The notes under the pieces were generated by a model that saw nothing but the letters and a program-made list of their open reading frames with translations, did not search any database and was not told the origin of the DNA. This document shows positions 13,689-31,491 of a stretch of DNA of 38,424 nucleotides, piece after piece. The stretch's first letter is position 1, and every line of letters begins with the position of its first letter. The position numbers and the translations under genes are program-made. Source of the stretch: a virus; IMG/VR virus record IMGVR_UViG_3300048694_001055, positions 1-38,424 of that record. One strand, written 5' to 3'.

Positions 13689-15620
13689 TTAAGCGTTTAT
13701 ATCTACAATTTCACATTCTCCAGCTACACAAGCAAGTGCTTGTGTTCCAGTAGTAGTATCTTCTGTTTCATAAAGAGATAAAGCATCCCAATTGATTGCA
13801 CTTGGCATTTTTGCCAAAGCCTCAAGATATTCTTCTTCTGTGCAATCTTGATATGGAGCTTGCTTATAAGTATGATCTGAGTAAGGCAAGAATGAAATTC
13901 CAGATACTTCATCAAAATGTTCCCATACCCATGCTCCTACTGACATCCATTCATCTTCTCGAACTGAAACAGTAATTGATGGTTTGTGTTCACACCATGC
14001 TCTTTGATATGTCAACCAAATATTAAGATGTTCAATAGCTGTAAGATCATTTCTAAGGATAGCTCCATCTGGAGCTTTCATTGGGAATGAAAATACTGTT
14101 GTATCATTTGGCTTCATAACATCATCTTCTGCTGGGATTCCCGCATCAGTTAAAAATTTTGTAAGCGGATCTTTTTTATCACCACGGACAGTACGAATAT
14201 AATAATCGTTATGCCATGGATGCATTCCAGATGAAACTCCAACAAGTTGTGAAACTGTACCTGACGGTTTTACACAAGTAATTGCTGCAGATTCATTAAT
14301 TCCAATTTTATTAGCTTCTTGTTTGTTTGTATATCTTGCAACATCACGAATACTTTCTAAAAATTTTTCAAGTTCTTCAAGATTTTCTTTACCTGACATA
14401 AATTTATGTCCGAATTGACCAGTAAGGGATACTCCAAGTAATCTTTCTTCTTCTGTATTATCTTTCCAAATTTTACGAAGATATTTAAAATCAGTAAGTG
14501 TTGATTGCCAAGTTCCAAGAATTGTTGCAAGCTTTACTTTTTTAGCAATATCTTCTTTTGTATCATTTTGACGAATTACAACTTCTGAAAGATTGCAAAA
14601 TTGATATGGGCGAAGAATAATTTCTGAACAAGGGTTTGTTCCATAATGAATTTCTGAACTTCTACGTCCCCACCTTGCTGCTTGTTTTTGAGCTGCTGCA
14701 ACATTATAAATTCCACGCTCTCCAGATTTAGAATCATATAAAGATTTCCATTCATTTATAAATTGTGCCATTTCTGGTTTGCGAGAATACGCTACTGAAT
14801 TATTTGATAAAGATCTTTGAGGGTTTTGCTCCCACCAATTTCCAGATTTTGCAGCTGCCATTTCAATGTCGTTGATGTTCGAAAGAGAAATCATTGCAGA
14901 TCTACGAACTCCTCCAACAACAACAACTTCTCCAATTTTGCACATAATATCATGTGCTTCAATTGGTTTTAATTGACGACCAACTGCTCCTTTAAAAGTT
15001 TTAATTGTAAAATCAAAAAGATTTACTAAAGGTTGTGGTCCAGATGAACGACCACCCATAGTCTTTAATCTTGCTCCAGATGGACGAAGTTTACTTACAT
15101 CAATTGCTGGAATTTGCCCTGCGTAAAGTAAAGAAATCAATTCTTTAAATGCTTTTGCCCAACCTTGTTTTGAATCCTCAACAACAACAACGGTATTTGA
15201 TTTTTCTAAAGTATCTGGTATTGCTGGGAGTTTATTAACATACTTGTATTCAACTGAGAATCCAACTCCAGTTCCACACATAAGAATATACATTGTTTCG
15301 TCAAACGATCTAACATTATCAACGGGAACAAAAGAACAGTTATATCCAGCAACATGATCTCTTTCTAGTGCAGGGCCAGATGTCATAACAGAACGCATAG
15401 ATGGCATTACGTTTCTATTGAATACCGCTGTTTTTAATTCTTCAACAAGAGATTTATCTGGAAAATAATTATGAGTTCCTGCTAAATGATTCAACATAAA
15501 ATCAAAATAACGATCAACTGTTTCTTGCCAAGTTTCTCTGCGATTATCTTTTTCTAACCAACGGGCATAACGAGAAAGTGCAATAAAATTTTCATATGGA
15601 TTTTGGATAGCTCCAGACAT
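13689..15620 (-). CDS. nrdJ: Adenosylcobalamin-dependent class II ribonucleotide reductase (monomeric RTPR type)
   Basis: 643 residues, shorter than the roughly 740 of the Lactobacillus enzyme. It reduces ribonucleotides to deoxyribonucleotides with a B12-generated thiyl radical, supplying DNA precursors without oxygen. Expected cysteines are present: C95 (GYNCSF) as the first active-site thiol, and C331 in NPCSEI with C342 exactly 11 residues later, matching the radical cysteine and its partner. The C-terminal shuttle pair is C631 and C636 (C-x4-C, GECEI). No cobalamin riboswitch fits in the 46 bp upstream, and I see no other B12 or thioredoxin gene, so the cofactor and reductant must come from the host. 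GAGG precedes the ATG at 15618-15620. Confidence 0.93.
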   Translation of the reverse strand: MSGAIQNPYENFIALSRYARWLEKDNRRETWQETVDRYFDFMLNHLAGTHNYFPDKSLVEELKTAVFNRNVMPSMRSVMTSGPALERDHVAGYNCSFVPVDNVRSFDETMYILMCGTGVGFSVEYKYVNKLPAIPDTLEKSNTVVVVEDSKQGWAKAFKELISLLYAGQIPAIDVSKLRPSGARLKTMGGRSSGPQPLVNLFDFTIKTFKGAVGRQLKPIEAHDIMCKIGEVVVVGGVRRSAMISLSNINDIEMAAAKSGNWWEQNPQRSLSNNSVAYSRKPEMAQFINEWKSLYDSKSGERGIYNVAAAQKQAARWGRRSSEIHYGTNPCSEIILRPYQFCNLSEVVIRQNDTKEDIAKKVKLATILGTWQSTLTDFKYLRKIWKDNTEEERLLGVSLTGQFGHKFMSGKENLEELEKFLESIRDVARYTNKQEANKIGINESAAITCVKPSGTVSQLVGVSSGMHPWHNDYYIRTVRGDKKDPLTKFLTDAGIPAEDDVMKPNDTTVFSFPMKAPDGAILRNDLTAIEHLNIWLTYQRAWCEHKPSITVSVREDEWMSVGAWVWEHFDEVSGISFLPYSDHTYKQAPYQDCTEEEYLEALAKMPSAINWDALSLYETEDTTTGTQALACVAGECEIVDINA

Positions 15621-15666
15621 TTAGTAAAACCTCTTATTCTTTAAAATTGATATAGATGTTATTCTA

Positions 15667-16710
15667 TCATGAATGCTTTTTTAAGTCTTCAAGATTAAAA
15701 TATTTTTTTTGTTCCTGTAGTTCTTTGTCTATCTCATGCAATCTTGCTACTGCAGGTTTTGTAACATTTAACCAATCATATTTTTGATGAATTGCAAAAG
15801 CGTTTCTAAAAGTCTCAGGTAAAACTTTAGAGTAATTTTGAACTGAGTTAAACATTTGCGTTTTTAAATGCTCTTTATTTGGCTTCAGCATATATCCTGG
15901 GTGTTTGTCTTGCCAAGGACTTAAATGCCAATTTGAATCAACTGGCCAAGTTATAAAATCTTTATAGTCCGCCCAACCATCAACACAAATTGTTGGCATT
16001 CCCATTGCTAAAGCTTGTAATGGTTGAAAACCAAAACCTTCTCCCCAACTTGGATAAACAAAAACATCAGACTGATCATATAAACCAATCATTTGTTCTT
16101 CACTAAGAATTCCAGTTATTTCTATAATATTATCATATGCAGCTGACGGGGAACAATCAAACCCTCTAGGATGCTGTACTCTTGTAGTATTCATTTTATG
16201 ACATTTTAAAATTAATCTATAATTTGGATCATCTCCAAATAATTCTATAAATGAATCAACAACTAGTTGTGCATCTTTTCTTGTAAACGGCTCACCAATA
16301 TGAAAAAATGTAAAAGGTTTATTTGCTTCTTTTCTTAATTTAGGTTTCCAGGATTCACTAATGCCATGACTATAAGTAAAAACTTTTTTATATGGAAATA
16401 TTTTTTTATAAACATTAGTAATCCAATTTGAAGTTCCCCATAATTCATCACAGTAAGAAACATTTTGTTTAAAAGCTTGAGACATTTCTGAAGATTCCCA
16501 AGCTGAGTATCCTATTTTATAGGATAAGTGATCATAAAAAACATAATTACCTGGGTCAGCAAAACAAATTTCTATATCTGCCTTTTCAGATTCTATTTCT
16601 ACATCAATTCCTAATTCTTTAAATGATTTAAACATGTGGTATGAAGCTTCTCCATAGCCCACTTCTCTATTCATATATCTAATTGCAGGACCTGTAAATG
16701 ATACTTTCAA
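15667..16710 (-). CDS. GT-B glycosyltransferase (GT1/GT4-like)
   Basis: 347 residues. The C-terminal Rossmann domain has the glycosyltransferase family 4 pattern: a GEPFTRKD loop, FVYPSWGEGFGFQPLQALAMGMP (an E-x7-E-like motif in which the second acidic residue is Q) and a following VDGWADYKD. The N-terminal half has MNREVGYGEASYHM, resembling the acceptor-side glycine loop. It probably transfers a sugar from an NDP-sugar to a surface glycan or a virion protein (inference). Start TTG at 16708-16710, chosen because AAGGAG lies five bases before it and no in-frame ATG is near. It faces the lysin gene across a 74-bp divergent promoter region. Confidence 0.85.
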   Translation of the reverse strand: MKVSFTGPAIRYMNREVGYGEASYHMFKSFKELGIDVEIESEKADIEICFADPGNYVFYDHLSYKIGYSAWESSEMSQAFKQNVSYCDELWGTSNWITNVYKKIFPYKKVFTYSHGISESWKPKLRKEANKPFTFFHIGEPFTRKDAQLVVDSFIELFGDDPNYRLILKCHKMNTTRVQHPRGFDCSPSAAYDNIIEITGILSEEQMIGLYDQSDVFVYPSWGEGFGFQPLQALAMGMPTICVDGWADYKDFITWPVDSNWHLSPWQDKHPGYMLKPNKEHLKTQMFNSVQNYSKVLPETFRNAFAIHQKYDWLNVTKPAVARLHEIDKELQEQKKYFNLEDLKKHS

Positions 16711-20312: not shown

Positions 20313-20604
20313 AATATTTTACATATGGAAAATTGTTAAAGATCGTTGGTTAAAGCCTTATGACGATATAATTTTGCGTTTTAATACAAAAGCAGAACAA
20401 GGAAATCCACTTATTTGGCGTGTATTTGTAAATGGAATAGAATATCTAGCTAGTGAATTTGAAATTCATGGTTATGTTTACAGTGCACTTACAAAAGAAC
20501 AAGATAATATAAAATATAATGTAGGATGCAAAGGTAGAATTAGGTGGGAAGGCTCTAAGGCAGTTATAATTACTCCAAAAAAAGCTAACGATATTGTTAT
20601 ATGA
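20305..20604 (+). CDS. Hypothetical protein
   Basis: 99 residues from the ATG at 20305, chosen over 20287 because it gives the 8-nt start-stop overlap used elsewhere in this genome. The pattern NPLIWRVFVNGIEYLASEFEIHG, then GCKGRIRWEGSKAVI, resembles a conserved unknown family of T4-like environmental phages. It is probably a small beta-rich protein. It ends as ATGA with the next gene. Confidence 0.65.
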   Translation: MNKIFYIWKIVKDRWLKPYDDIILRFNTKAEQGNPLIWRVFVNGIEYLASEFEIHGYVYSALTKEQDNIKYNVGCKGRIRWEGSKAVIITPKKANDIVI

Positions 20605-21206
20605 AAGAATTTTTAAGTAAAATATTTAAATACTATGATCCATTTACTTTAATACATCATAAAAATTATGATGTATCTAAAATAGAAAAACATATTTCTA
20701 GTTATACAGAAAAAGAATGGTTGCTAGACACTTCTAGACAAAGCATGTTTGGATCACACCAAGAAACTAATTCATATTTTATTACAGACCATAGAGCAAA
20801 TTGGAATTTAAGAGAAAACTACGAACCAATATTTAGATGTCAAGATCCAGTACTTTGGGAATTGGTAAAGCCAATTATTGAAGATTTAGAGCATATACAT
20901 AATGGTAAAGTTGGAAAATCATTATTAATTAAACTTCCTGCACACGCATCAATAGAAGATCATTATGATTCAGGACAGTTATTGGGAGTATCAAGAAGGA
21001 ATCATGTTGTTATTACTACAAATCCAGATGTATCTTTTATAGTTGACACAGATACTGTTCACATGAAGCAAGGAGAATGCTGGGAAATTAATAATGACAA
21101 GCGTCATGAAGTAATTAATGCAGGAGACACAGATAGAGTACATTTACTAGTAGATATTATTCCACAGTGGGCTATAGATATGTATGAGCTTCAAAGACCA
21201 GAATGA
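20601..21206 (+). CDS. Aspartyl/asparaginyl beta-hydroxylase-like dioxygenase
   Basis: 201 residues. The central segment LIKLPAHASIEDHYDSG places H121 and D123 as iron ligands. A basic SRRNH follows, with KRHEVINAG (distal H169) and DRVHLLVD (R179 for 2-oxoglutarate). This is the AspH-type cupin arrangement, a third Fe(II)/2OG enzyme in the window and in a different subfamily from those at 487 and 1139. The substrate is unknown. It overlaps its neighbours by 4 nt on both sides. Confidence 0.8.
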   Translation: MKEFLSKIFKYYDPFTLIHHKNYDVSKIEKHISSYTEKEWLLDTSRQSMFGSHQETNSYFITDHRANWNLRENYEPIFRCQDPVLWELVKPIIEDLEHIHNGKVGKSLLIKLPAHASIEDHYDSGQLLGVSRRNHVVITTNPDVSFIVDTDTVHMKQGECWEINNDKRHEVINAGDTDRVHLLVDIIPQWAIDMYELQRPE

Positions 21207-23195: not shown

Positions 23196-23211
23196 TGTGG
23201 TCTATATCACA
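23196..23211. promoter_or_regulatory. Crp-like palindrome (one mismatch)
   Basis: TGTGG-TCTATA-TCACA, one base off TGTGA-N6-TCACA. It lies 54 bp before the -10 box of the next promoter. Confidence 0.55.
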
Positions 23212-23242
23212 TGAATTTTGTCCGTTATGTCCGTTTTGCGAC

Positions 23243-23271
23243 TTGAAAAAGTCAGATTTGTATGCTAGTAT
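23243..23271 (+). promoter_or_regulatory. Early promoter
   Basis: TTGAAA (23243-23248), a 17-nt spacer beginning AAGTCAG and ending TGC, and TAGTAT (23266-23271). It has the spacer GTC and the extended -10 shared by this promoter family. Confidence 0.65.
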
Positions 23272-23313
23272 TCTACTATAACAATTAAATATAAAGTAAA
23301 TCCTGTGAGCCTC

Positions 23314-23354
23314 TGAGCCTAGCAAATAATCCGAAAGGTGAGCCTAGCAAATAA
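23314..23354 (+). repeat. Two 16-bp direct repeats in early leader
   Basis: TGAGCCTAGCAAATAA at 23314-23329 and again at 23339-23354, with a further AGCAAATAAT just after. They lie in the transcribed leader. A CCGAAAGG resembling this phage's ribosome site lies between the copies. Confidence 0.8.
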
Positions 23355-23408
23355 GAGCAAATAATCAGGTCAGCATAGTTAAAGAATATCTCTTGAAAGG
23401 AGAATATA

Positions 23409-23606
23409 ATGTCTAAGTATTCAATTATTCAGACCCCACTTAATAAGTGGGCTGTTATCTGTCCAATGGTAGAGAGAGCATACTCTACTTCCCGCCTTGT
23501 TATGCCTACATGGTTACCTGCTAACCATACTCATATGGGTATCTTTAATACACTAGATGAGGCTAGTGTTCGTATGCATAACCTTAGAGAAACTGAGGTG
23601 CTATAA
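23409..23606 (+). CDS. Hypothetical early protein
   Basis: 65 residues, unrecognised (WAVICPMVERAYSTSR, GIFNTLDEASVRMHN). GAAAGGAG lies six bases before the ATG. It is the first gene of the early block and ends as TAATG with the next gene. Confidence 0.65.
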   Translation: MSKYSIIQTPLNKWAVICPMVERAYSTSRLVMPTWLPANHTHMGIFNTLDEASVRMHNLRETEVL

Positions 23607-23812
23607 TGTCTTTAATGACTGATAATAAATATATTCCTACATGGGAACGCTCATATAACAAATGGGATACAGAACCCGAAATATGGGATAAGGATATTGT
23701 AGAAGAAGAAACTACAGAAGAAGACCTTGCTACTTCCCGCTTTCTTGCATCGCTTGACTTAATGGAAATAGATGAGATAGAATTAGAAGAAGACCTAGAG
23801 GAAGAAGAATAA
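23606..23812 (+). CDS. Acidic early protein
   Basis: 68 residues, strongly acidic, with a C-terminus of almost only Glu/Asp/Leu (EIDEIELEEDLEEEE). Acidic small phage proteins can act as DNA mimics or bind host enzymes, but nothing here is specific. The start shares one base with the previous stop (TAATG). Confidence 0.62.
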   Translation: MSLMTDNKYIPTWERSYNKWDTEPEIWDKDIVEEETTEEDLATSRFLASLDLMEIDEIELEEDLEEEE

Positions 23813-23814
23813 TA

Positions 23815-23931
23815 ATGGATTTAGGGCGTATTGGTTTTATTGGTTTAGAGATATGCATACTAGGTATTCTCTTAATTGAATTGTATAAAGTAACTAGTGA
23901 TTTATTTACAGAATTAAAGGAGAATAAATAA
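23815..23931 (+). CDS. Small single-span membrane protein
   Basis: 38 residues: one hydrophobic segment (GFIGLEICILGILLIEL) and a charged tail. It has no strong ribosome site of its own and sits 2 bp after the previous stop, so coupling is likely. Confidence 0.5.
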   Translation: MDLGRIGFIGLEICILGILLIELYKVTSDLFTELKENK

Positions 23932-24099
23932 ATGCATTGCAATTGTAAAGAAACAGCTTTTAAAACAAATAGTGTGTGTGGCTGTAATTGCCACCCTAAC
24001 AATAAAGATGCTTTTGGTTTTTCTAATGCAATACAATTAGATCATCTTAGTAATGAACAGATAAATATGCTAGATGAAATGTTTAAAGACTTTAAATAA
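23932..24099 (+). CDS. Small cysteine-rich protein
   Basis: 55 residues. CNC near the N-terminus and CGCNCH later suggest a bound zinc. The C-terminal part is helical (LSNEQINMLDEMFKDF). AAAGGAG lies eight bases upstream of the ATG, within the end of the preceding gene. Confidence 0.6.
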   Translation: MHCNCKETAFKTNSVCGCNCHPNNKDAFGFSNAIQLDHLSNEQINMLDEMFKDFK

Positions 24100-24224
24100 A
24101 ATCTAATAATTTATGCGTAAATAATTTGGACATTTCGGGCAGCCCCACGTGTGCCACGTGCGTCAAGTCAACACGCCGTATAAAATGGTCATATTTTATT
24201 TTATGACTAGTCCTACCTACAAAA

Positions 24225-24240
24225 TGTGACCTACTTCACA
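24225..24240. promoter_or_regulatory. Crp-like palindrome (exact)
   Basis: TGTGA-CCTACT-TCACA, an exact match to the Crp/GlxR half-sites, 56 bp before the -10 box of the promoter at 24297. Confidence 0.7.
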
Positions 24241-24272
24241 ATCCCAAATGTCCGTTTTGATAGCATTTTGCT

Positions 24273-24302
24273 CAAAAAAATGTCGTACCCCCATGTTATA
24301 CT
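24273..24302 (+). promoter_or_regulatory. Early promoter, weak -35
   Basis: TATACT at 24297-24302 preceded by TGT; the -35 (CAAAAA) is poor. The spacer has the ATGTC element. GAAAGGA and an ATG follow about 30 bp on. The weak -35 is consistent with a need for an activator. Confidence 0.55.
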
Positions 24303-24334
24303 TCAGTATATAAAGTTAAAGAAAGGAAGTTAAA

Positions 24335-24517
24335 ATGACTTCACTAAATGAAATTGAAAAAGATATCGCTATCGAATTTGGCTTCGAGGCTATCGGTTAT
24401 GGTTTGCCAAAAATTACTAGCGAGCAATTAACAAATGCTCAACGCTTATTTAATGCTCTCTCAGTAGATGAGCAAAATGAAATTGTAAATAATTATTTTA
24501 GAAAGTTAGGTGCTTAA
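24335..24517 (+). CDS. Hypothetical early protein
   Basis: 60 residues, mostly helical, acidic N-terminal half (LNEIEKDIAIEFGF), no recognised domain. The GAAAGGA ribosome site is eight bases before the ATG. Confidence 0.65.
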   Translation: MTSLNEIEKDIAIEFGFEAIGYGLPKITSEQLTNAQRLFNALSVDEQNEIVNNYFRKLGA

Positions 24518-24518
24518 T

Positions 24519-24668
24519 ATGGATAAAGTTAGAATTGACGAATTAAAGCGTTTTAATGATAACGCTCAATATCTAGCAGATATTGCTAGACTTGATGAGC
24601 TTATTGCTAAAGGTCAATATGTCGGAATAAATGACTTATTTGATCAAGATGACTTATTGTGTGATTAA
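24519..24668 (+). CDS. Hypothetical early protein
   Basis: 49 residues, acidic, unrecognised (VRIDELKRFNDNAQYLADIARLDELIAKG). It begins 1 bp after the previous stop. Its last codons overlap an exact Crp-like palindrome. Confidence 0.58.
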   Translation: MDKVRIDELKRFNDNAQYLADIARLDELIAKGQYVGINDLFDQDDLLCD

Positions 24669-24675
24669 ACTCACA
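24660..24675. promoter_or_regulatory. Crp-like palindrome (exact)
   Basis: TGTGA-TTAAAC-TCACA, spanning the stop codon of the preceding gene and 45 bp before the -10 box at 24721. Confidence 0.7.
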
Positions 24676-24697
24676 CTCCCGCCTTGCGGCGTGTCGC

Positions 24698-24726
24698 TTG
24701 AAAATGTCTGACCTATAGGCTATAAT
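24698..24726 (+). promoter_or_regulatory. Early promoter, near consensus
   Basis: TTGAAA (24698-24703), a 17-nt spacer starting ATGTCTGACC, and TATAAT (24721-24726). A GCGTGTCG box touches the -35 (24689-24696). Confidence 0.78.
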
Positions 24727-24777
24727 TGCCACTATAATTAAATAAATAAAAGTAAGTATCTTAGAAAGGATAACTAA

Positions 24778-24879
24778 ATGAATTTAGACGAATTCCGTGC
24801 TTATGTTGAAGCACAAAGAAAAACCTCTACTTTAGAGGCTATTGCAAAATTAACTACAAAAGAAAGTGAGACTAACTAA
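24778..24879 (+). CDS. Very small early protein
   Basis: 33 residues (MNLDEFRAYVEAQRKTS..). GAAAGGA lies seven bases before the ATG and a strong promoter lies upstream. It opens a chain of five genes joined by single-base TAATG overlaps. No function known. Confidence 0.6.
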   Translation: MNLDEFRAYVEAQRKTSTLEAIAKLTTKESETN

Positions 24880-25085
24880 TGTCTGCAAATATTTATTCTA
24901 TTGAGAGTTTATTAGAAAACTCTTATTATCGTTCCCGTTCTCTAGATGGACAAATTGTTCATGCTGAAATAGATAATCGTGCCGTATGGTATGGTGAAAA
25001 TACTCGTTCATATTTGGTTCGTGTAATCCCTAGCAATGGTGGAAAATCACAATGGCGAACTCTTGCAGTTAGTTTGGGGGAATAA
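24879..25085 (+). CDS. Hypothetical early protein
   Basis: 68 residues, beta-rich in appearance (VHAEIDNRAVWYGENTRSYLVRVIP, SQWRTLAVS). No family recognised. The start and the stop both share a base with the neighbouring genes. Confidence 0.65.
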   Translation: MSANIYSIESLLENSYYRSRSLDGQIVHAEIDNRAVWYGENTRSYLVRVIPSNGGKSQWRTLAVSLGE

Positions 25086-25258
25086 TGATAATTAAATTTG
25101 ATAATATTTCCGAAATTGTAGGAATTCCTTGTGATGATTGCGGGAGCGGTGGTTTCGTTATCCTTGATGTTCATGGAAATATTGAAAGAATGGGTTGCGA
25201 TTGTGTTGGTGTGGAAGATGAATATTTTCCGTTTGACGAGTTTGGAGAATGCGACTAA
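25085..25258 (+). CDS. Small zinc-ribbon protein
   Basis: 57 residues. CDDCGSGGF and CDC flank a short beta-hairpin (VILDVHGNIERMG), like half of a DnaJ-type zinc-binding module. Common in form among actinophage early proteins; the role is unknown. Confidence 0.62.
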   Translation: MIIKFDNISEIVGIPCDDCGSGGFVILDVHGNIERMGCDCVGVEDEYFPFDEFGECD

Positions 25259-25404
25259 TGAAAAAAAATGTTTTAATTTCTTTTGTAACTGAAGCAGAAA
25301 CTGATTTAGAAGCGGTATTTAATCTAAATAAAATTTTTAGATTTTTAACCGATAAAGAATTATCACAATTTGAAGCGTTTGATGTTGTGGAGGTTGTAGA
25401 ATAA
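25258..25404 (+). CDS. Hypothetical early protein
   Basis: 48 residues, no recognised motif (KKNVLISFVTEAETDLEAVFNL). Joined to both neighbours by TAATG. Confidence 0.58.
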   Translation: MKKNVLISFVTEAETDLEAVFNLNKIFRFLTDKELSQFEAFDVVEVVE

Positions 25405-25586
25405 TGATGACTAGAAAAGACTATGTTAAAACCGCTGAAATCTTAAAGAATTACTATGATAATAATCCAGTAGAACTTTCAGATTTTAAATATTTAGTAT
25501 TTGATTTTGTTGATTGGTTTGAAGAAGATAATCCTAATTTTAACGAAGAAAAGTTTTTGGAGGCAATATATGGAAAAGCAAAATAA
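25404..25586 (+). CDS. Conserved small phage protein
   Basis: 60 residues. The pattern TRKDYVKTAEILK, then FVDWFEEDNPNFNEEKFLEAIYG, fits a small helical family seen in many phages (recalled as a DNPxF..xxFLxA motif), function unknown. The TAATG start follows the chain. Confidence 0.68.
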   Translation: MMTRKDYVKTAEILKNYYDNNPVELSDFKYLVFDFVDWFEEDNPNFNEEKFLEAIYGKAK

Positions 25587-25728
25587 AGTAACTCGTGTGC
25601 AAGAATTGCGGAGAAGTAATGCAGCTACTCCGCAAAAAAATAAAAAGAAATACACACGCAAAGTTAAAAATAAAAAAACAAGGTCGTTAAAAGTTTTTAG
25701 CGATCTTGTTTCACCTTATTTTAGCTAA
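25570..25728 (+). CDS. Small basic protein
   Basis: 52 residues from the ATG at 25570, with TTGGAGG upstream. It overlaps the previous gene by 17 nt. It is highly Lys-rich (KNKKKYTRKVKNKKTR), so nucleic-acid binding is possible. Its last codons form one arm and the loop of a long inverted repeat. Confidence 0.55.
   Translation: MEKQNKVTRVQELRRSNAATPQKNKKKYTRKVKNKKTRSLKVFSDLVSPYFS
25676..25711 (+). terminator. Long inverted repeat at end of early operon
   Basis: A 17-bp stem (25676-25692 with 25695-25711) including two G-T pairs, overlapping the last codons of the basic protein and followed by a broken T-run. It is probably a terminator built into coding sequence. Confidence 0.55.
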
Positions 25729-25758
25729 ATTTATGCGTAAATAATTCGGACAAATCGC

Positions 25759-25842
25759 CCCACGTGCCACGCACTCGGGCGTGTCGCATATGATATTAAT
25801 CACATTAAATTAATCTCATATTTTGAGAATTACGGCGTGTCG
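25759..25842 (+). promoter_or_regulatory. CCACGTG and GCGTGTCG boxes with Crp-like site
   Basis: CCACGTG (25759-25765), GCGTGTCG (25779-25786 and 25835-25842) and TATGA-TATTAA-TCACA (25789-25804, one mismatch), the last 63 bp before the -10. A TCTCA/TGAGA inverted repeat sits between (25814-25828). The layout recurs at 26594-26680. Confidence 0.65.
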
Positions 25843-25844
25843 AA

Positions 25845-25873
25845 TTGATTATGTCATACGATTATGTTAAAAT
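25845..25873 (+). promoter_or_regulatory. Early promoter
   Basis: TTGATT (25845-25850), a 17-nt spacer beginning ATGTCA, and TAAAAT (25868-25873). Confidence 0.65.
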
Positions 25874-25903
25874 TACACCCTCAACCCGAAAGAAAGTAGA
25901 AAA

Positions 25904-26179
25904 ATGTCAAGTATATCAAAAGCATATGAACTAGCAGAAGCAGGCAAAGAAGCAATGACATCGTTTGATGTTATGGTGCAGGCTGCTAATATTGTAAAAA
26001 ATGCTAACACTTTATCAGAGCAAGAATTAATTGATTTAATGTTTAAGTATTCAGGAACTTTAACCGCCGCAGTTGCGTCTCGTGTAACAAATGTTCTTAT
26101 GTCAGAATCAGATTTTGATTCAATGTGTGCAGATATCCAAATGTTTGATGAAATTGAAAAGGATGTGTTAGGTGAGTAG
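25904..26179 (+). CDS. Hypothetical early protein
   Basis: 91 residues, helical, acidic at the C-terminus (AYELAEAGKEAMTSFDVMVQAANIV, FDEIEKDVLGE). Unrecognised. CCCGAAAGAAAG precedes the ATG. It ends in an 8-nt overlap with the next gene. Confidence 0.68.
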   Translation: MSSISKAYELAEAGKEAMTSFDVMVQAANIVKNANTLSEQELIDLMFKYSGTLTAAVASRVTNVLMSESDFDSMCADIQMFDEIEKDVLGE

Positions 26180-26312
26180 TTTATTTCAAGTATTAGCAAA
26201 TAATCATCCTGACGGAAACTTTAATGAAGAAGACTTATGGAATGCAATTGCAGAAGCAAATGATTTAGATGTAAATGTTATAATGGACGGAGACTTAGCA
26301 GAATGGCTATAA
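26172..26312 (+). CDS. Hypothetical early protein, GTG start
   Basis: 46 residues. The GTG start at 26172 is supported by AAAAGGA eight bases upstream and by the 8-nt overlap with the previous stop. The content is acidic and helical (DGNFNEEDLWNAIAEANDLD). No family known. Confidence 0.6.
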   Translation: MSSLFQVLANNHPDGNFNEEDLWNAIAEANDLDVNVIMDGDLAEWL

Positions 26313-26518
26313 AAAAAATTAAAAACGGTAATATCTTTACAGCAATGATAGCTGACATGTTAGATGTCTCTGATTCAGTGGCCCTGCGTGTGCACAATTA
26401 TATAGATGAAAATTATAATTTAGACTGGTCCGAAGCAGACGAGGATGAAATTAAATTCTATGCATTCATGGCCTTCGAAGATTTAAATGAAGAGGTCCCC
26501 GCCGAATTTTATATGTGA
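26303..26518 (+). CDS. Hypothetical early protein
   Basis: 71 residues, acidic C-terminal half (LDWSEADEDEIKFYAFMAFEDLNEE). The N-terminus has a short basic stretch. Overlaps the previous gene by 10 nt. A strong terminator follows. Confidence 0.63.
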   Translation: MAIKKIKNGNIFTAMIADMLDVSDSVALRVHNYIDENYNLDWSEADEDEIKFYAFMAFEDLNEEVPAEFYM

Positions 26519-26530
26519 CGGGTGAGAGAG

Positions 26531-26558
26531 CAAGGGCCAGGATGTTTCCTGGCCCTTG
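26531..26558 (+). terminator. Perfect 12-bp stem terminator
   Basis: CAAGGGCCAGGA (26531-26542) pairs fully with TCCTGGCCCTTG (26547-26558), 4-nt loop. The T-run after it is weak (TATAAACTTTAC), but the stem is strong and sits 12 bp after the operon's last stop. Confidence 0.75.
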
Positions 26559-26593
26559 TATAAACTTTACAAGATCTGAATAGTTATGCACTT

Positions 26594-26680
26594 CCACGTG
26601 CCCCCGCACTCGGGCGTGTCGTTACGAATGTGATATTAATCACCAAAAATGTGTCTCAAACTTTAAGATTATAGCGTGTT
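26594..26680 (+). promoter_or_regulatory. Second copy of CCACGTG / GCGTGTCG / Crp-like leader
   Basis: CCACGTG (26594-26600), GCGTGTCG (26614-26621), TGTGA-TATTAA-TCACC (26629-26644, one mismatch, 64 bp before the -10) and GCGTGTT (26674-26680). Shares the 17-mer CGCACTCGGGCGTGTCG and the TGATATTAATCAC core with the leader at 25759. Confidence 0.65.
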
Positions 26681-26684
26681 TAAA

Positions 26685-26714
26685 TAGACAGATGTCAGCC
26701 TAAAATGCTATAAT
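26685..26714 (+). promoter_or_regulatory. Early promoter
   Basis: TAGACA (26685-26690), an 18-nt spacer with ATGTCAG ending TGC, and TATAAT (26709-26714) followed by TGC. CCCGAAAGGA precedes the next ATG. Confidence 0.72.
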
Positions 26715-26744
26715 TGCAACCTATCAAACCCGAAAGGAAATAAA

Positions 26745-26987
26745 ATGGCAAAATGGAATAACTATCCGTTTACAGTAGGCGGAGTTAATTTTAACTCTCG
26801 TGTAAATATGGAGTCAAGTATTGGTAAGCAAGTTTCTCGCATGGGAGATAAAATGTTTACTCTTGCAAATACTCAGGCAGTGTCAGCACTTCTTGGTGAT
26901 GTTTCTTTAATGTCTTTAGATGAACTTAAGTCTGAGTTAGTTAGAGTTAATGCAGGTGGAAGCGAAGCGTTTATTGAATTAGCGTAA
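26745..26987 (+). CDS. Hypothetical early protein
   Basis: 80 residues (WNNYPFTVGGVNFNSRVNMESSIGKQ, SLDELKSELVRVNAGG). No recognised domain. Own promoter and ribosome site. A hairpin follows the stop. Confidence 0.66.
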   Translation: MAKWNNYPFTVGGVNFNSRVNMESSIGKQVSRMGDKMFTLANTQAVSALLGDVSLMSLDELKSELVRVNAGGSEAFIELA

Positions 26988-26992
26988 TTAGT

Positions 26993-27016
26993 GGGGGGAT
27001 TTTACAAAGTCCCCCC
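26993..27016 (+). terminator. G/C hairpin after 26745 gene
   Basis: GGGGGGA (26993-26999) with TCCCCCC (27010-27016). It resembles the hairpin after the lysin gene. It overlaps the -35 and spacer of the next promoter, so termination and initiation share the same bases. Confidence 0.5.
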
Positions 27017-27030
27017 TCATATGCTATACT
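27001..27030 (+). promoter_or_regulatory. Early promoter
   Basis: TTTACA (27001-27006), an 18-nt spacer starting AAGTC and ending TGC, and TATACT (27025-27030). No Crp-like site upstream. Confidence 0.62.
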
Positions 27031-27061
27031 CACCTATCCCTACAACCCGAAAGGCTATCAA

Positions 27062-27271
27062 ATGGAATACAATTATGTCCTAACAACACACTATGACGGC
27101 GATTATCACGCAAGTTTTAGATTTCCCGATGCGTTATCTGCCGTAGATGCGTTTAGAAAATGCGTTGATGCTGGAGATGCTAAGTCATACGCAACCTATA
27201 ATCTACTAGAGCCAAATGGCAAACTACACACACTTAATTTTTATAGAAATGGAGAAGTAAGTGGGAAGTAA
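27062..27271 (+). CDS. Hypothetical early protein
   Basis: 69 residues, alternating beta/alpha look (YNYVLTTHYDGDYHASFRFPDALSAVDAFRKCVD). Reminiscent of small sequence-diverse actinophage proteins, but no firm family. CCCGAAAGG upstream. Confidence 0.66.
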   Translation: MEYNYVLTTHYDGDYHASFRFPDALSAVDAFRKCVDAGDAKSYATYNLLEPNGKLHTLNFYRNGEVSGK

Positions 27272-27575
27272 TTTAGCAACAGAATTAGCAAATGGTGATT
27301 TAGATGTATCTTATAGACAAGGTATAGCTATTCAGTTACAAGGTAATCATTATCCACCCGTCCCGCTTTCTATGATTGATCCGTGTATTGAAGCGATTGA
27401 AGCGTGTAACGATGATGACTATAATCGTTTAATTAAACTACCTGAGGGAGTATCCTGGAGAGGACAAGACTCTGCTCCCGCCTCTGCTATCGTAGAGGGA
27501 CACCACCTAGATGCGTGGCTTAATCACGCTGATTGGTGTGATTGCTCAGATTGTGTGACGGAAGTCACAGAATAA
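27261..27575 (+). CDS. Conserved actinophage early protein
   Basis: 104 residues, GTG start with GGAG upstream and an 11-nt overlap. The pattern GNHYPPVPLSMIDPCIEAIEACNDDD, then LPEGVSWRGQDSAPASAIVEGHHLDAWL, matches a family I recall from actinobacteriophages, function unknown. The C-terminal CDCSDC may bind metal. Codons for its last residues hold an exact Crp-like palindrome. Confidence 0.73.
   Translation: MGSNLATELANGDLDVSYRQGIAIQLQGNHYPPVPLSMIDPCIEAIEACNDDDYNRLIKLPEGVSWRGQDSAPASAIVEGHHLDAWLNHADWCDCSDCVTEVTE
27554..27569. promoter_or_regulatory. Crp-like palindrome (exact), inside coding end
   Basis: TGTGA-CGGAAG-TCACA, within the last codons of the 27261 gene and 54 bp before the -10 at 27624. 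Confidence 0.68.
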
Positions 27576-27599
27576 TCATCTCAAATAATAAGATTGGGC

Positions 27600-27629
27600 T
27601 GGACAAATGTCTGACCCAAATGCTACAAT
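27600..27629 (+). promoter_or_regulatory. Early promoter
   Basis: TGGACA (27600-27605), an 18-nt spacer with ATGTCTGACCC ending TGC, and TACAAT (27624-27629). A TTAGCAAATTGCTAA near-palindrome follows at 27639-27653 in the leader. Confidence 0.68.
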
Positions 27630-27675
27630 AGACCCCTATTAGCAAATTGCTAATAACTTACAGAAAGGAAGCAAA

Positions 27676-27840
27676 ATGACCATTGGCAACAAGACATATC
27701 AGATTGGTGATTTATACACCACTCAGAAGTCAAAGGTTACAGGAACTATCAAGCAGATTGTTCCAAACGCATCTGGCTCGGTGCGTGTGCAACTTGAAGT
27801 AGATGGCGATACTCGCTGGACTACTTTCAAGAATAACTAA
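27676..27840 (+). CDS. Small conserved actinophage-type protein
   Basis: 54 residues. The pattern GDLYTTQKSKVTGTIKQIVPN, then VRVQLEVDGDTRWTTF, resembles a small beta-barrel-like protein common in actinophages; no function known. GAAAGGAAG precedes the ATG. It forms its own one-gene unit between two promoters. Confidence 0.65.
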   Translation: MTIGNKTYQIGDLYTTQKSKVTGTIKQIVPNASGSVRVQLEVDGDTRWTTFKNN

Positions 27841-27854
27841 ATAAATATGCTGGT

Positions 27855-27888
27855 GGGGTCAGAAAATGTCTGACCCCCCTGCTACAAT
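27855..27888 (+). promoter_or_regulatory. Early promoter combined with hairpin
   Basis: TACAAT (27883-27888) with TGC before it and a poor -35. A 9-bp inverted repeat GGGGTCAGA / TCTGACCCC (27855-27863, 27869-27877) covers the -35 and the ATGTCTGACC spacer element, so hairpin and promoter overlap. Confidence 0.55.
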
Positions 27889-27926
27889 AACTCTCTCAAA
27901 CAAACCCGAATAGAAAGAAGAAATAA

Positions 27927-28346
27927 ATGGCTAGAAGCAAAGCAATAAATGTAAAAATCGCAACCGCTAAGGTAATCAAAGCACTTGAAGCAAAGTTGGC
28001 AGAAATTAAGGCTGACTATGCAAATCAAGATAAGTTACAGGAAAAGCATAAGAAAGCAGTAGAAAAGTGGCAGAAAGAAGTTGGCAAACTTGCTTTATCT
28101 GCTATGGCTAAGGCTGAAGATGTCTGTGCTAGCGAACGCTACAATGGCGCAATTCAAGTTTCATTTGAGTTACCAAAGGGAACTATTGAACTTCCTGAGC
28201 GACCTGAAGCAGACTTCTCAGTTATGCACCAATGGCAATACAAAGAAACAACTAACGAAATTGAAAACGCAATTCGTATTCTCAAAATGACGGACGAAGA
28301 AGTTGTAAGCACTTCAACTTACAATACTATCGCTCAGTATCTCTAA
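27927..28346 (+). CDS. Coiled-coil early protein
   Basis: 139 residues. Residues 10-65 are a Lys/Ala/Glu coiled coil (VIKALEAKLAEIKADYANQDKLQEKHKKAVEKW is split by no proline). A beta segment (IQVSFELPKGTIELPERP) and a helical end follow. Similar coiled-coil proteins occur in actinophages; the role is unknown. It is followed by a strong terminator. Confidence 0.7.
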   Translation: MARSKAINVKIATAKVIKALEAKLAEIKADYANQDKLQEKHKKAVEKWQKEVGKLALSAMAKAEDVCASERYNGAIQVSFELPKGTIELPERPEADFSVMHQWQYKETTNEIENAIRILKMTDEEVVSTSTYNTIAQYL

Positions 28347-28362
28347 TTAGAGTTTGGTTTTC

Positions 28363-28391
28363 GGTGGGTTTCCTAAGTGTAAAAACCCACC
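28363..28391 (+). terminator. Terminator after coiled-coil gene
   Basis: GGTGGGTTT (28363-28371) pairs with AAACCCACC (28383-28391), 11-nt loop, 16 bp after the stop. Confidence 0.72.
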
Positions 28392-28395
28392 ACTA

Positions 28396-28490
28396 ATTTT
28401 CCAAAACCTCCTTTCGCAAATTAGGTTGGAAACGAAACAATGGCAGTTTGTAAGTGTTCTCGCCAAATGTCGTAAGGAATAACTTTCACA
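28396..28490 (+). other. Non-coding stretch with a second hairpin
   Basis: TTTCCA...ACCT pairs with AGGT...TGGAAA around a 13-nt loop (about 28398-28433). No ORF or further motif is visible. Confidence 0.5.
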
Positions 28491-28632
28491 TATAATTTAA
28501 TAAGTGGTCGTGAGTGATAACAGGTAAGTGTTATAGTAGCCTATAACCACCACTAAAATTTGATTGGGTAGATGCTATTTGCAGCTGCTAAATAGGATTG
28601 CGATTCTAGATCTAAAAATCCGTTCCCAATCA
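28491..28632 (+). ncRNA. Candidate structured small RNA with own -10 box
   Basis: TATAAT at 28491-28496 would start RNA near 28503. The first folded unit is closed by GTGGT/ACCAC and holds two exclusive hairpins sharing one arm: ATAACA with TGTTAT, or GTTATAG with CTATAAC. The second unit is closed by TGATTGGG (28561-28568) and CCCAATCA (28625-28632), with an inner CTATTTGCAG/CTGCTAAATAG stem. There is no ORF. It is not a tRNA, since no T-arm fits. The -35 is poor, so the promoter is the weakest part. Confidence 0.5.
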
Positions 28633-28634
28633 TT

Positions 28635-28730
28635 TCACATTGTGAGACCCACGTGGGCCATGACCAGTCATTGTCAAATAGACACGCCGATCTGAAAATG
28701 TGATTTACGACACGCATTTTGGAATTGACA
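28635..28730 (+). promoter_or_regulatory. Operator-like boxes upstream of DUF932 gene
   Basis: TCACA-T-TGTGA (28635-28645), CCCACGTGGG (28648-28657), GACACGCC (28681-28688), CGACACGC (28708-28715) and half a Crp-like site (TGTGA at 28699). The same set of boxes as other early leaders. Confidence 0.55.
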
Positions 28731-28754
28731 AATGTCTGCCCAATCTGTTATACT
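28725..28754 (+). promoter_or_regulatory. Early promoter, consensus -35
   Basis: TTGACA (28725-28730), an 18-nt spacer starting AATGTCTGCCC, and TATACT (28749-28754) followed by TGC. Confidence 0.78.
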
Positions 28755-28781
28755 TGCACAATCTCTAGAAAGGATATATAA

Positions 28782-29816
28782 ATGACGAATCTCGCTCATG
28801 AAAAAGAAATTGCAGATAATTCTGTAACTTTCGCTCTCGTTAATTCCCGCTCAAATCCTGCATGGCATTCTGCTGCTAATCATGTATGGAATACAGATGA
28901 GGAACAGCCTACAATTAAGCAAATCATGGATTCTGCTAAATTATCAAATTGGAATGTTCGCTTAGAGCCTGTTTCAGAATTGGCTACACAGCATAATTTT
29001 CTAACAGAATCTTTCTTAGTTGTTCGTGATAACCCGCACAAGGCTAATGCTACAGATGTTTTATCTGTTGTAGGTTCACGCTATAAAGAAGTTCAGAATG
29101 AAGACTTATTCGCATTCGCTGAAAATCTTCACGATTCAAACCCTGAAGTAACTGTAGATTCTGCAGGTTCATTCAAGAATGGGCGTGTTGTATTTGGTTC
29201 ATGGTCTGTCCCGCAAACTTTAGTTCTTGACCCTAAAGGTGCTAATGATAAAACTAATTTGTATTTAGTTGTTTACACTAGCCATGATGGTTCTGTTGCT
29301 GTTCAAGCAGCAATTACACCTGTTCGTGTTCGCTGTCAGAATACACTTAATTTTGCTATGCGTAGTGCAAAGCAATCTTTCAAGATTCGCCACACTCAAA
29401 CTGTAGATGGAAAAATTGCACAGGCTCGTGAAGCCTTAAATCTATCTGTTGCTTATATGGACGAGTTTAGCAAAGAAGCAGAAATGCTATTTCAGCGTGA
29501 AGTTACAGATAAGAAATTTTCTGAAATTATTAACGCTATTTACCCAAAGCCTGAAACTGATAAAAAGGGTTCATTAACTAAATGGGAAAATAAAGTTGTA
29601 TTGCTTGACGAGTTGTATCACAATTCAGAAACCAATGCTAATATCAAAGGAACAGCATGGGGAGCATTAAATGCTTTCACAGAACGCCTTGATTATTTCC
29701 GCACTGCCCGTAAAAATGGTGGCGAATCACTTATTTATTCTGCAAGTGGTTTTGACCCTGTTATCACAGCAGAAAAAAATAATATCAAGAAAAAAATTCT
29801 TGCACTAACAGCGTAA
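28782..29816 (+). CDS. DUF932 / TIGR03299 phage-plasmid protein
   Basis: 344 residues. VLSVVGSRYKEVQNEDLFAFAENL, VFGSWSVPQ, LYLVVYTSHDGSVAVQAAITPVRVRCQNTL and the helical segment KIRHTQTVDGKIAQAREAL are characteristic of DUF932, a family widespread on phages and plasmids; the length is typical. The biochemical role is not established. It is the largest early gene, monocistronic, with its own strong promoter and GAAAGGA, so it is probably made in quantity early. A tRNA gene follows. Confidence 0.88.
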   Translation: MTNLAHEKEIADNSVTFALVNSRSNPAWHSAANHVWNTDEEQPTIKQIMDSAKLSNWNVRLEPVSELATQHNFLTESFLVVRDNPHKANATDVLSVVGSRYKEVQNEDLFAFAENLHDSNPEVTVDSAGSFKNGRVVFGSWSVPQTLVLDPKGANDKTNLYLVVYTSHDGSVAVQAAITPVRVRCQNTLNFAMRSAKQSFKIRHTQTVDGKIAQAREALNLSVAYMDEFSKEAEMLFQREVTDKKFSEIINAIYPKPETDKKGSLTKWENKVVLLDELYHNSETNANIKGTAWGALNAFTERLDYFRTARKNGGESLIYSASGFDPVITAEKNNIKKKILALTA

Positions 29817-29855
29817 GAAATAAATTCCTGAGCATGAATTAAAACTGCTCCACAT

Positions 29856-29929
29856 GGTGCGTTAGAATAGTTGGTTAATTCGCTACCCTGTCACGGTAGA
29901 GATCACGGGTTCAAGTCCCGTACGCATCG
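29856..29929 (+). tRNA. tRNA-Asp (anticodon GTC)
   Basis: 74 nt with a full cloverleaf: acceptor GGTGCGT with ACGCATC (one G-T pair), D-stem GAAT/ATTC, anticodon stem CTACC/GGTAG with loop CTGTCAC, five-base variable loop, T-stem ACGGG/CCCGT with loop TTCAAGT, discriminator G. CCA is not encoded. It reads GAC/GAT, abundant in these acidic early proteins. Confidence 0.93.
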
Positions 29930-29930
29930 C

Positions 29931-30047
29931 ATGGAAAATAAAAATCTAAAAGAAATACAAGAGCTAATTAATACTGCATGGTGGAATGGTGACATTAGCG
30001 ATGAAGCTGCTGATTGGTGGGGAGAAAATGCTAAAAAGCTGATGTAG
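29931..30047 (+). CDS. Very small protein directly after tRNA
   Basis: 38 residues (KEIQELINTAWWNGDISDEAADWWGENAKKLM), resembling short Trp-rich actinophage proteins. The ATG lies 1 bp after the tRNA discriminator, leaving no room for a ribosome site outside the tRNA. Tentative. Confidence 0.45.
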   Translation: MENKNLKEIQELINTAWWNGDISDEAADWWGENAKKLM

Positions 30048-30050
30048 TGG

Positions 30051-30130
30051 CCACGTGCGTGTGATCAAAATCACAATTACGATATGTCCTATTTATCCCA
30101 TAATTACGAATTACGATCTATAAATTACGA
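30051..30130 (+). promoter_or_regulatory. CCACGTG, exact Crp-like palindrome and four ATTACGA boxes
   Basis: CCACGTG (30051-30057), TGTGA-TCAAAA-TCACA (30060-30075), then ATTACGA at 30076, 30103, 30110 and 30124. The Crp-like site is 89 bp from the -10, further than in the other leaders. Confidence 0.68.
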
Positions 30131-30141
30131 TTAAGAACCTA

Positions 30142-30170
30142 TTGAAATTGTCAGTGGTTTTTGCTATAAT
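30142..30170 (+). promoter_or_regulatory. Early promoter, near consensus
   Basis: TTGAAA (30142-30147), a 17-nt spacer starting TTGTCAG and ending TGC, and TATAAT (30165-30170). Confidence 0.78.
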
Positions 30171-30199
30171 TGGCTATTCTCGAACCGAAAGGAAATTAA

Positions 30200-30862
30200 A
30201 TGCCAAACTGGGTATCAAATAGTATTACTATAGAAGGTAATCCTGAATTAATTAAACAAGTAAAAGAACAATTATCTAAGCCTTATATTATGCCTGTAGC
30301 ATCAGTAGGGGATTTAAACTATAAAGTTTCAGAGATGAATATAGATAATGTATTCTCATTCTGGAATATCATTGCTCCCACCAATTTAGTTGAATATGTA
30401 AAACAACCTTGGACTAAAGAGGGTAATGAAACTATTTCTAATCCTGATTCTTGGTATAACTGGAATAACCGTAATTGGGGATGTAAATGGGATACAACTA
30501 ATCCTGAATTAGAAGATGAAGTTGAAAATGGAGATAACTTAGTTCTTGTATATTCATTTGAAACTGCATGGGGAACTCCTGATAATGCTCTTATTGAATT
30601 GTCTCGTCAGTTCCCGTCTCTTCTTATTACTAACGAATATAAAGAAGAAACAGGTTGGGGTGGAGAGACAGAATATCTTCGTGGTGAAATCACTGCTGAA
30701 TCTAGTTATAACTGGGCATGCTGGGAATGTGATTATAAAGAAACAGGCGAACCACCATATTGTGAAGACTGCGAATACGATATGTGTCCTTCTTGTGGTC
30801 ATGGAGAACCTGAAGAGGAATTAAGAACAAATTGTCCTATACATGGAAAGGTGGATGCATAA
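30200..30862 (+). CDS. YubB/DUF1281-like protein with C-terminal zinc ribbon
   Basis: 220 residues. The N-terminus MPNWVSNSITIEGNPELIKQV, the FSFWNIIAP segment and WGCKWDTTNPE with SFETAWGTPDNALIELS are typical of the ferredoxin-like YubB/DUF1281 family of plasmids and phages. Residues about 173-215 add a zinc ribbon (CWEC, CEDCEYDMCPSCG, CPIHG) not usual in the family. The function is unknown. It ends as TAATG with the next gene. Confidence 0.78.
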   Translation: MPNWVSNSITIEGNPELIKQVKEQLSKPYIMPVASVGDLNYKVSEMNIDNVFSFWNIIAPTNLVEYVKQPWTKEGNETISNPDSWYNWNNRNWGCKWDTTNPELEDEVENGDNLVLVYSFETAWGTPDNALIELSRQFPSLLITNEYKEETGWGGETEYLRGEITAESSYNWACWECDYKETGEPPYCEDCEYDMCPSCGHGEPEEELRTNCPIHGKVDA

Positions 30863-31491
30863 TGTCTATGGATCTTAATAGCTGGACTAAGTATACATAT
30901 TCTTGTGACCCTAATGAATGTGATTCTTTAATTGAATATACATGTAAGGATACCTTTGGATTCCCGTCTGGTAGTGTGATGAATATCACATGTCCTTGTG
31001 GTCGAAAACCCAACCTTTTGTCAGTGCAGGATGCTACAATTGGACCCTTAACAACAAACCCGAAAGGAACAACAATGGAAACCGCAACACTTAACGAGCA
31101 AATTAAAAACGAATATGATTTGCTTTATGGCAACCGTATCACAGAATTAGAAAACGAGTTATCTGCCATTCGACAGAATCGTGAATACTATCTTGCAGAA
31201 AATGGTCGTGTTCAAGGACAGATTATTGATGTGGTTGATGAAATCCAAGCAGGTAATTGGACAGATGTTGATGACATTGCAAACACACTTTGCGAAATCA
31301 TTGACTATAATCCTGTAAAGGAAATTGAATTTACTGCAACTATTCGTTTTACAGGTCGTATGGAAGTTCCTGTATCTGAATACAATAATGGATTTGATAT
31401 CTCAGATGCATTGTCTGATGCATATGTAGATATTAATAATGGTGATATTATTATTGACCAGTATGATATTGAAGATGCAGAGGAGTGCTAA
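30862..31491 (+). CDS. Zinc-ribbon protein fused in frame to a downstream early gene
   Basis: 209 residues from the TAATG start. Residues 1-55 form a cysteine-rich unit (CDPNEC, TCK, CPCGRKP). Residues 72-209, from the ATG at 31075, look like a separate early protein with a coiled start (ETATLNEQIKNEYDLLYGNRITELENELSAI) and a beta-rich end. Between them the reading frame runs through an exact Crp-like palindrome, a -10 box and the CCCGAAAGGA ribosome site with no stop. So the short form (31075-31491) is probably made from its own promoter, and the long form from upstream. Confidence 0.66.
   Translation: MSMDLNSWTKYTYSCDPNECDSLIEYTCKDTFGFPSGSVMNITCPCGRKPNLLSVQDATIGPLTTNPKGTTMETATLNEQIKNEYDLLYGNRITELENELSAIRQNREYYLAENGRVQGQIIDVVDEIQAGNWTDVDDIANTLCEIIDYNPVKEIEFTATIRFTGRMEVPVSEYNNGFDISDALSDAYVDINNGDIIIDQYDIEDAEEC
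30975..30990. promoter_or_regulatory. Crp-like palindrome (exact) inside ORF
   Basis: TGTGA-TGAATA-TCACA, in coding sequence, 44 bp before the -10 at 31035. Confidence 0.7.
31011..31040 (+). promoter_or_regulatory. Internal early promoter, poor -35
   Basis: TACAAT (31035-31040) preceded by TGC; TTGTCAG is present in the spacer but there is no -35 match. CCCGAAAGGA and the ATG at 31075 follow at the spacing used by other early genes. Confidence 0.58.

Follow-up and report, generated by a model that had tools for sequence, protein, structure and literature searches.

Putative Crp/GlxR-type operators above a PafBC-like core in the early promoters of an uncultured freshwater actinophage

Palindromes and core promoters of the early arm

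The early promoters of an uncultured virus (IMG/VR record IMGVR_UViG_3300048694_001055, a 38.4-kb contig whose 38,424 nucleotides are referred to here as the window) carry two elements that appear to be read by host proteins. These are putative operators of the Crp/GlxR type, i.e., palindromes of the form TGTGA-N6-TCACA, and beneath them a core resembling the DNA-damage promoters of PafBC. Host PafBC, together with host Crp acting from class I positions, probably drives this early arm, which covers ~23-34 kb of the window, and the phages appear to encode neither regulator. The window belongs to a freshwater actinophage of low GC content (about 35%) that is distantly related to the Streptomyces Stanwilliamsviridae.

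An earlier, sequence-only reading of the window listed eight such palindromes, five exact and three with one mismatch, and all eight were recovered at the same positions (Table 1). The exact form occurs five times against a mean of 0.07 in dinucleotide shuffles, and 0 of 100 shuffles reached five, in line with the previous estimate of well under one exact site by chance. Allowing up to one mismatch raises the count to eight (1.97 expected), a number that no shuffle reached, and no other arms around an N6 spacer exceed five copies in the window. The assignment to the Crp/GlxR type is strengthened by the match to the palindrome including its inner bases and by its rank as the top N6 palindrome in relatives. 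Two exact sites were also said to lie in coding sequence, which was taken as a sign of selection on the site itself. Those at 27554 and 30975 do lie inside reading frames, the latter in a frame running from 30863 through to 31491 (the site at 24660 touches only the final codons of the open reading frame (ORF) 24510-24668), but for 30975 the selection argument carries little weight, since a similar peptide, V-T-x-I-T-C, is retained there in relatives. The longer frame at 30863-31491 contains a promoter with its Crp site, a ribosome-binding site and an ATG (31075), an arrangement kept in relatives; the gene may therefore come in a long and a short form.

A promoter matrix trained mainly on relatives, used with a score cut-off of 15, found ten promoters in the window, every one on the + strand and between 23266 and 31035. 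Eight of the ten are each preceded by a listed site, as had been proposed, and the gaps given earlier from site to -10 box (54, 56, 45, 63, 64, 54, 89 and 44 bp) proved exact, the measured centre distances being these gaps plus 8. The ninth promoter (-10 at 28749) lies downstream of a two-mismatch site, while the tenth (27883) has none. The core under the sites, absent from the earlier reading, appears to be a DNA-damage promoter of the PafBC type, with its -26 element. Across six phage early arms, TGTCRG stands exactly 10 bases before TAnWWT in 54 cases against 0-5 at any other spacing, and the offset from TGTCNG to the extended -10 is fixed in 48 of 50 cases. PafBC-type promoters have the consensus tTGTCRgtg-8 nt-TannnT (PMC5656591), and the phage core TGTCAG-N10-TAnnnT has a spacing identical to that of this RecA-independent promoter, tTGTCRgtg-N8-TAnnnT. 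Cryo-electron microscopy (cryo-EM) has placed PafB in contact with the -26 motif, and single-stranded DNA activates PafBC (PMC11804915).

Table 1 Features of the window; distances (bp) run from the centre of the palindrome to the -10 box.
Feature	Position	Strand	Basis or remark
Ribonucleotide reductase and glycosyltransferase pair	13689..16710	-	Adjacent, as in Streptomyces phage Jay2Jay; ties the window to its Stanwilliamsviridae cousins
Crp-type palindrome, one mismatch (TGTGGTCTATATCACA)	23196..23211	+	Distance 62
PafBC-like core promoter: -26 element AGTCAG, -10 TAGTAT	23250..23271	+	Promoter matrix
Crp-type palindrome, exact	24225..24240	+	Distance 64
PafBC-like core promoter: TGTCGT ... 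TATACT	24281..24302	+	Promoter matrix
Crp-type palindrome, exact	24660..24675	+	Distance 53
GGCGTGTCG element just 5' of core promoter	24688..24696	+	Sequence; early-arm-specific in relatives
PafBC-like core promoter: TGTCTG ... TATAAT	24705..24726	+	Promoter matrix
GGCGTGTCG element 5' of Crp-type site	25778..25786	+	Sequence
Crp-type palindrome, one mismatch	25789..25804	+	Distance 71
GGCGTGTCG element, -35 side of core promoter	25834..25842	+	Sequence
PafBC-like core promoter: TGTCAT ... TAAAAT	25852..25873	+	Promoter matrix
GGCGTGTCG element 5' of Crp-type site	26613..26621	+	Sequence
Crp-type palindrome, one mismatch	26629..26644	+	Distance 72
PafBC-like core promoter: TGTCAG ... TATAAT	26693..26714	+	Promoter matrix
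Crp-type palindrome, exact, within ORF 27261-27575	27554..27569	+	Distance 62
PafBC-like core promoter: TGTCTG ... TACAAT	27608..27629	+	Promoter matrix
PafBC-like core promoter, no Crp-type site within 150 bp	27867..27888	+	Promoter matrix
Degenerate Crp-type palindrome, two mismatches, 5' of DUF932 gene	28699..28714	+	Distance 42; exact in relatives at the same promoter
PafBC-like core promoter of DUF932 gene: TGTCTG ... TATACT	28733..28754	+	Promoter matrix
DUF932 protein	28782..29816	+	Early-arm marker gene; query for relatives
Crp-type palindrome, exact	30060..30075	+	Distance 97
PafBC-like core promoter: TGTCAGTGG ... TATAAT	30149..30170	+	Promoter matrix
Crp-type palindrome, exact, within longer reading frame	30975..30990	+	Distance 52, likewise in most homologous promoters of relatives
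PafBC-like core promoter: TGTCAGTGC ... TACAAT	31019..31040	+	Promoter matrix

Conservation and helical phasing in relatives

Relatives of the phage in IMG/VR reach 112 kb, and the set analysed comprises 36 loci (616 kb). It holds 142 exact copies of TGTGA-N6-TCACA against 30 of the runner-up N6 palindrome, so the sites do recur in relatives, a point that the sequence-only reading had left to be checked. The inner bases follow the Crp consensus, with a preference for T next to TGTGA, for A next to TCACA and for an A/T centre. The sites are confined to the early arm: in four ~105-kb contigs, 23 of 23 exact copies fall in one ~5-8 kb stretch near the DUF932 gene, with zero elsewhere. Two further contigs hold eight (G003) and two (G009) copies; the pair in G009 lies within about 6 kb, and two of the eight in G003 are found towards the other end of the contig, as a circularly permuted assembly would explain.

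Helical phasing, the other central claim made earlier, is modest when tested on the window by itself (p about 0.03 at 10.5 bp by Monte Carlo) and becomes very strong with relatives, in which the distances from site centre to -10 peak near 52, 62, 72 and 84 bp. Kinship was removed by grouping promoters by their downstream protein and keeping one promoter per family, and for the resulting 55 families R was 0.57 at a period of 10.5 bp (p~2e-8), whereas periods of 8 and 13 bp yielded 0.07 and 0.11. Upstream of the same gene, the site shifts by about whole turns among phages, as for the DUF932 gene (61-62, 73, 84-85 and 105), while off-phase distances within families are 57, 65, 91 and 98-100. In a promoter-anchored test, viral sequences were scanned for the core motif alone, and the 80 contigs obtained, about half of which hold Crp sites, were pooled with the other loci. 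Here, a site carrying no more than one mismatch lies within 140 bp of 199 of the 431 promoters (0.4% in shuffles), and phasing at 10.5 bp reached R=0.66 for exact and R=0.80 for one-mismatch sites. The partly conserved peptide encoded over the site at 30975 is what coding constraint would leave, but chance or coding constraint as the maker of the sites is exceedingly improbable in view of the enrichment, the restriction to the early arm and the phasing over 55 gene families. For the site set as a whole, chance was rejected on the enrichment in the window and relatives and on the phasing.

The sites thus lie upstream of the core at whole-turn intervals, as in class I activation. Host Crp might instead bind and repress, as host CRP with cyclic AMP (cAMP) represses the pir, dam and recE promoters of coliphage T1 (PMC6737242), or the array might titrate host Crp off host genes, and the phage sites are indeed far nearer the consensus than sites in candidate-host genomes. 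Yet neither repression nor titration needs whole-turn phasing to the -10, and the sites stand upstream of the core promoter, not over it, making both very unlikely.

A third early-arm element, GGCGTGTCG/CGACACGCC, is ~100-fold enriched in the early arms of relatives and has preferred distances to the -10 of 33-34, 42, 75 and 96-97; the enrichment and the fixed distances therefore suggest a third regulator reading it. The related sequence CGACAC precedes the recA core in candidate-host genomes. DnaA boxes, considered as a further early-arm signal, showed no enrichment.

Regulators in the phages and in a candidate host

Searches of the phage records, some of which are fragments, gave no match to Crp, HTH_Crp_2 or cyclic nucleotide (cNMP)-binding domains (PF00325, PF13545, PF00027), and a search for WYL domains in the same records was likewise empty; a phage-encoded Crp and a phage-encoded PafBC-like protein were both rejected. 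Because the phages found encode neither regulator, host regulators are most likely responsible. The palindromes could also be read, for activation or repression, by a phage DNA-binding protein of another family acting at dispersed sites, in a layout like the stoperators of cluster A mycobacteriophages. Such a protein would fit the many copies in one phage arm and the candidate-host genomes without a matching regulon, but it is quite unlikely, as the inner bases match the Crp consensus, the distances are phased as in class I, and the records hold no protein of the Crp, HTH_Crp_2 or cNMP-binding kind. Stoperators, moreover, are asymmetric sites for a phage repressor and are not known to be phased to promoters.

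An actinobacterial host, as implied by the earlier reading, is borne out by WhiB, an actinobacterial hallmark encoded in 14 of 21 phage records, among them all six ~101-112 kb contigs fetched in full. The candidate host order is that of a metagenome-assembled genome labelled Actinomycetota, in which a 4.7-kb contig with a distant relative (48% identity) carries a site. In this order, 74 of 81 genomes encode an HTH_Crp_2 protein above the cut-off, 20 of these 74 read as orthologues of GlxR and Mycobacterium tuberculosis Crp, and the recognition helix of the order's Crp, ASRETVNKALADFA / SRETVNKALADFA, is identical to that of the M. tuberculosis Crp structure 3d0s. The crp/glxR gene expected in the host is therefore present in the candidate order, although the host itself is weakly assigned. 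A tandem WYL pair is found in 11 of 11 genomes of the order tested. The PafBC-type element matched at most four times in each of 18 genomes of the order and at least once in 13 of them, many matches being TGTCAGTGGCGCCTGCTACCTT or close variants, and in four of four candidate-host genomes read it stands 150-210 bp 5' of recA and directly precedes a LexA-like box. The TGTCAG core might instead be read by ClgR, by some other host regulator or by a sigma factor, leaving the Crp part unchanged. ClgR recognises the same P1 motif in mycobacteria according to a report cited in PMC5656591, and the elements of the window deviate from tTGTCRgtg. Such a reader is nonetheless unlikely given the exact N8 spacing, the cryo-EM of PafB on the -26 motif (PMC11804915), and the same element before recA and the tandem WYL genes in candidate hosts.

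The early arm consists of about ten short promoters of one plan. A fixed -26 element (TGTCAG or close) stands ten bases before the -10, and host PafBC with the housekeeping RNA polymerase would open this core. One exact or near-exact Crp/GlxR palindrome precedes the -10 by 42, 52, 62, 72, 84 or 95 bp, with most of the palindromes facing nearly the same side of the helix, and Crp at these whole-turn positions would touch the polymerase from upstream, i.e., by class I activation. We infer that both proteins bind these elements, activate rather than repress, and act jointly; the two would then most likely turn on the early genes ahead of any phage factor. It could further be speculated, though this is more doubtful, that the early arm integrates two global regulators of the host in an AND-like gate, which would tie the start of the phage to host stress and nutrient signals. 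Single-stranded DNA, possibly from the infection itself, would activate PafBC and thereby open the recA-like core, while Crp one or more whole turns upstream would boost that core according to host physiology, with no phage regulator involved.

Several observations weigh against control by host PafBC and class I Crp. The -26 elements of the window have T at the R position in several cases and deviate at other bases in some, and they are further from the consensus than those of some relatives. Among 113 exact sites, eight lie at 57-58 bp, half a turn out of phase. If the -10 starts at -12, the phage positions are ~ -64.5, -74.5, -84.5 and -95, compared with class I positions of -61.5, -71.5, -82.5 and -92.5 in Escherichia coli; this offset of 2-3 bp further upstream may reflect start-site assignment or the geometry of the actinobacterial polymerase. 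Neither the Crp-type site nor the PafBC-like core occurs in the Streptomyces cousins, of which 122 of 133.5 kb (Jay2Jay) and the first 20 kb (Angela) were read, and inheritance from such cousins was rejected on this absence. Assignment of the phages to the candidate host order is weak, because it rests on the one 4.7-kb contig binned in a metagenome-assembled genome. Finally, a class III adenylate cyclase was found in 0 of 41 genomes of that order, with Corynebacterium glutamicum positive as control, and almost no exact Crp sites occur there (2 in 18 genomes), neither exact nor one-mismatch sites being enriched.

A rich host regulon of exact Crp sites was thus not found in the genomes of the candidate order that were scanned; phylum-wide, many genomes hold more copies of the motif than of its reversed control, e.g., 17 vs 1 and 10 vs 0. 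The missing cyclase and the scarcity of native sites leave two readings: a Crp in the candidate order that acts independently of cAMP on a small number of native targets, or a true host from another part of the phylum. The suggestion that the phage reads the cAMP or carbon state of its host finds no support in the candidate order, though the true host may differ. The order has kept its GlxR/Crp orthologue despite lacking a class III cyclase in the 41 genomes and despite the scarcity of exact sites.

Genomic setting and relation to known systems

The ribonucleotide reductase of the window is 66% identical to reductases of Streptomyces Stanwilliamsviridae phages, and the DUF932 protein is 48-49% identical to its counterparts there. 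The glycosyltransferase/reductase pair and the DUF932 arm follow the same order as in Jay2Jay, where the counterpart of the arm is a long terminal repeat. By megablast, the early arm matched none of the named phages, none being close at the DNA level. A virion protein of 1390 amino acids (3521-7693) resembles structural proteins of T4-like cyanophages (about 41-43% identity over 64-74%), whereas the reductase and DUF932 genes are of actinophage ancestry. The phage also encodes two predicted oxygenases of the 2-oxoglutarate/aspartyl hydroxylase type (487-1125 and 20601-21206), and its early arm includes a single tRNA-Asp (gtc) gene (29856-29930), which follows the DUF932 gene and precedes the site at 30060.

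Freshwater actinobacteria are among the most abundant lake bacteria, and little is known about how their phages begin infection. If the proposed control is correct, a whole phage clade would have copied a DNA-damage promoter of its host and added phased sites for a host regulator, tying early infection to host stress and physiology. Its hundreds of promoters would then form a natural library in which evolution has tested the helical phasing of an activator.

Several known systems share parts of this arrangement. The stoperators of cluster A mycobacteriophages are likewise numerous operators scattered over one phage and serving a single protein. Jay2Jay and other Stanwilliamsviridae share the order of glycosyltransferase, ribonucleotide reductase and DUF932 early (terminal repeat) arm, but both the Crp-type site and the PafBC-like core are absent from Jay2Jay in the parts read. 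Coliphage T1 offers, with pir, a phage promoter under host CRP (PMC6737242); the T1 promoters are repressed in E. coli, whereas the actinophage sites are phased, activator-like and spread across the early arm. Class I activation by GlxR in Corynebacterium and Crp in M. tuberculosis is similar in palindrome consensus, in the recognition helix of the candidate host and in whole-turn positions, with cAMP dependence forming no part of the likeness; the phage set differs in its place in an early arm, its many near-consensus copies and its added PafBC-type core. The PafBC, or RecA-independent (RecA-NDp, P1), promoters of Actinobacteria share the -26 element, the N8 spacing and the place before recA of the candidate host, whereas in the phage the element serves a whole set of early promoters, often has T for R in the window, and has Crp sites upstream. 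The literature searched, with many subscription journals outside its coverage, held no paper joining PafBC to phage promoters. Control of phage promoters by host CRP is already known, as are class I Crp and PafBC promoters, each in hosts; what appears to be new is the combination of Crp sites with a PafBC-type core in the early arm of a phage.

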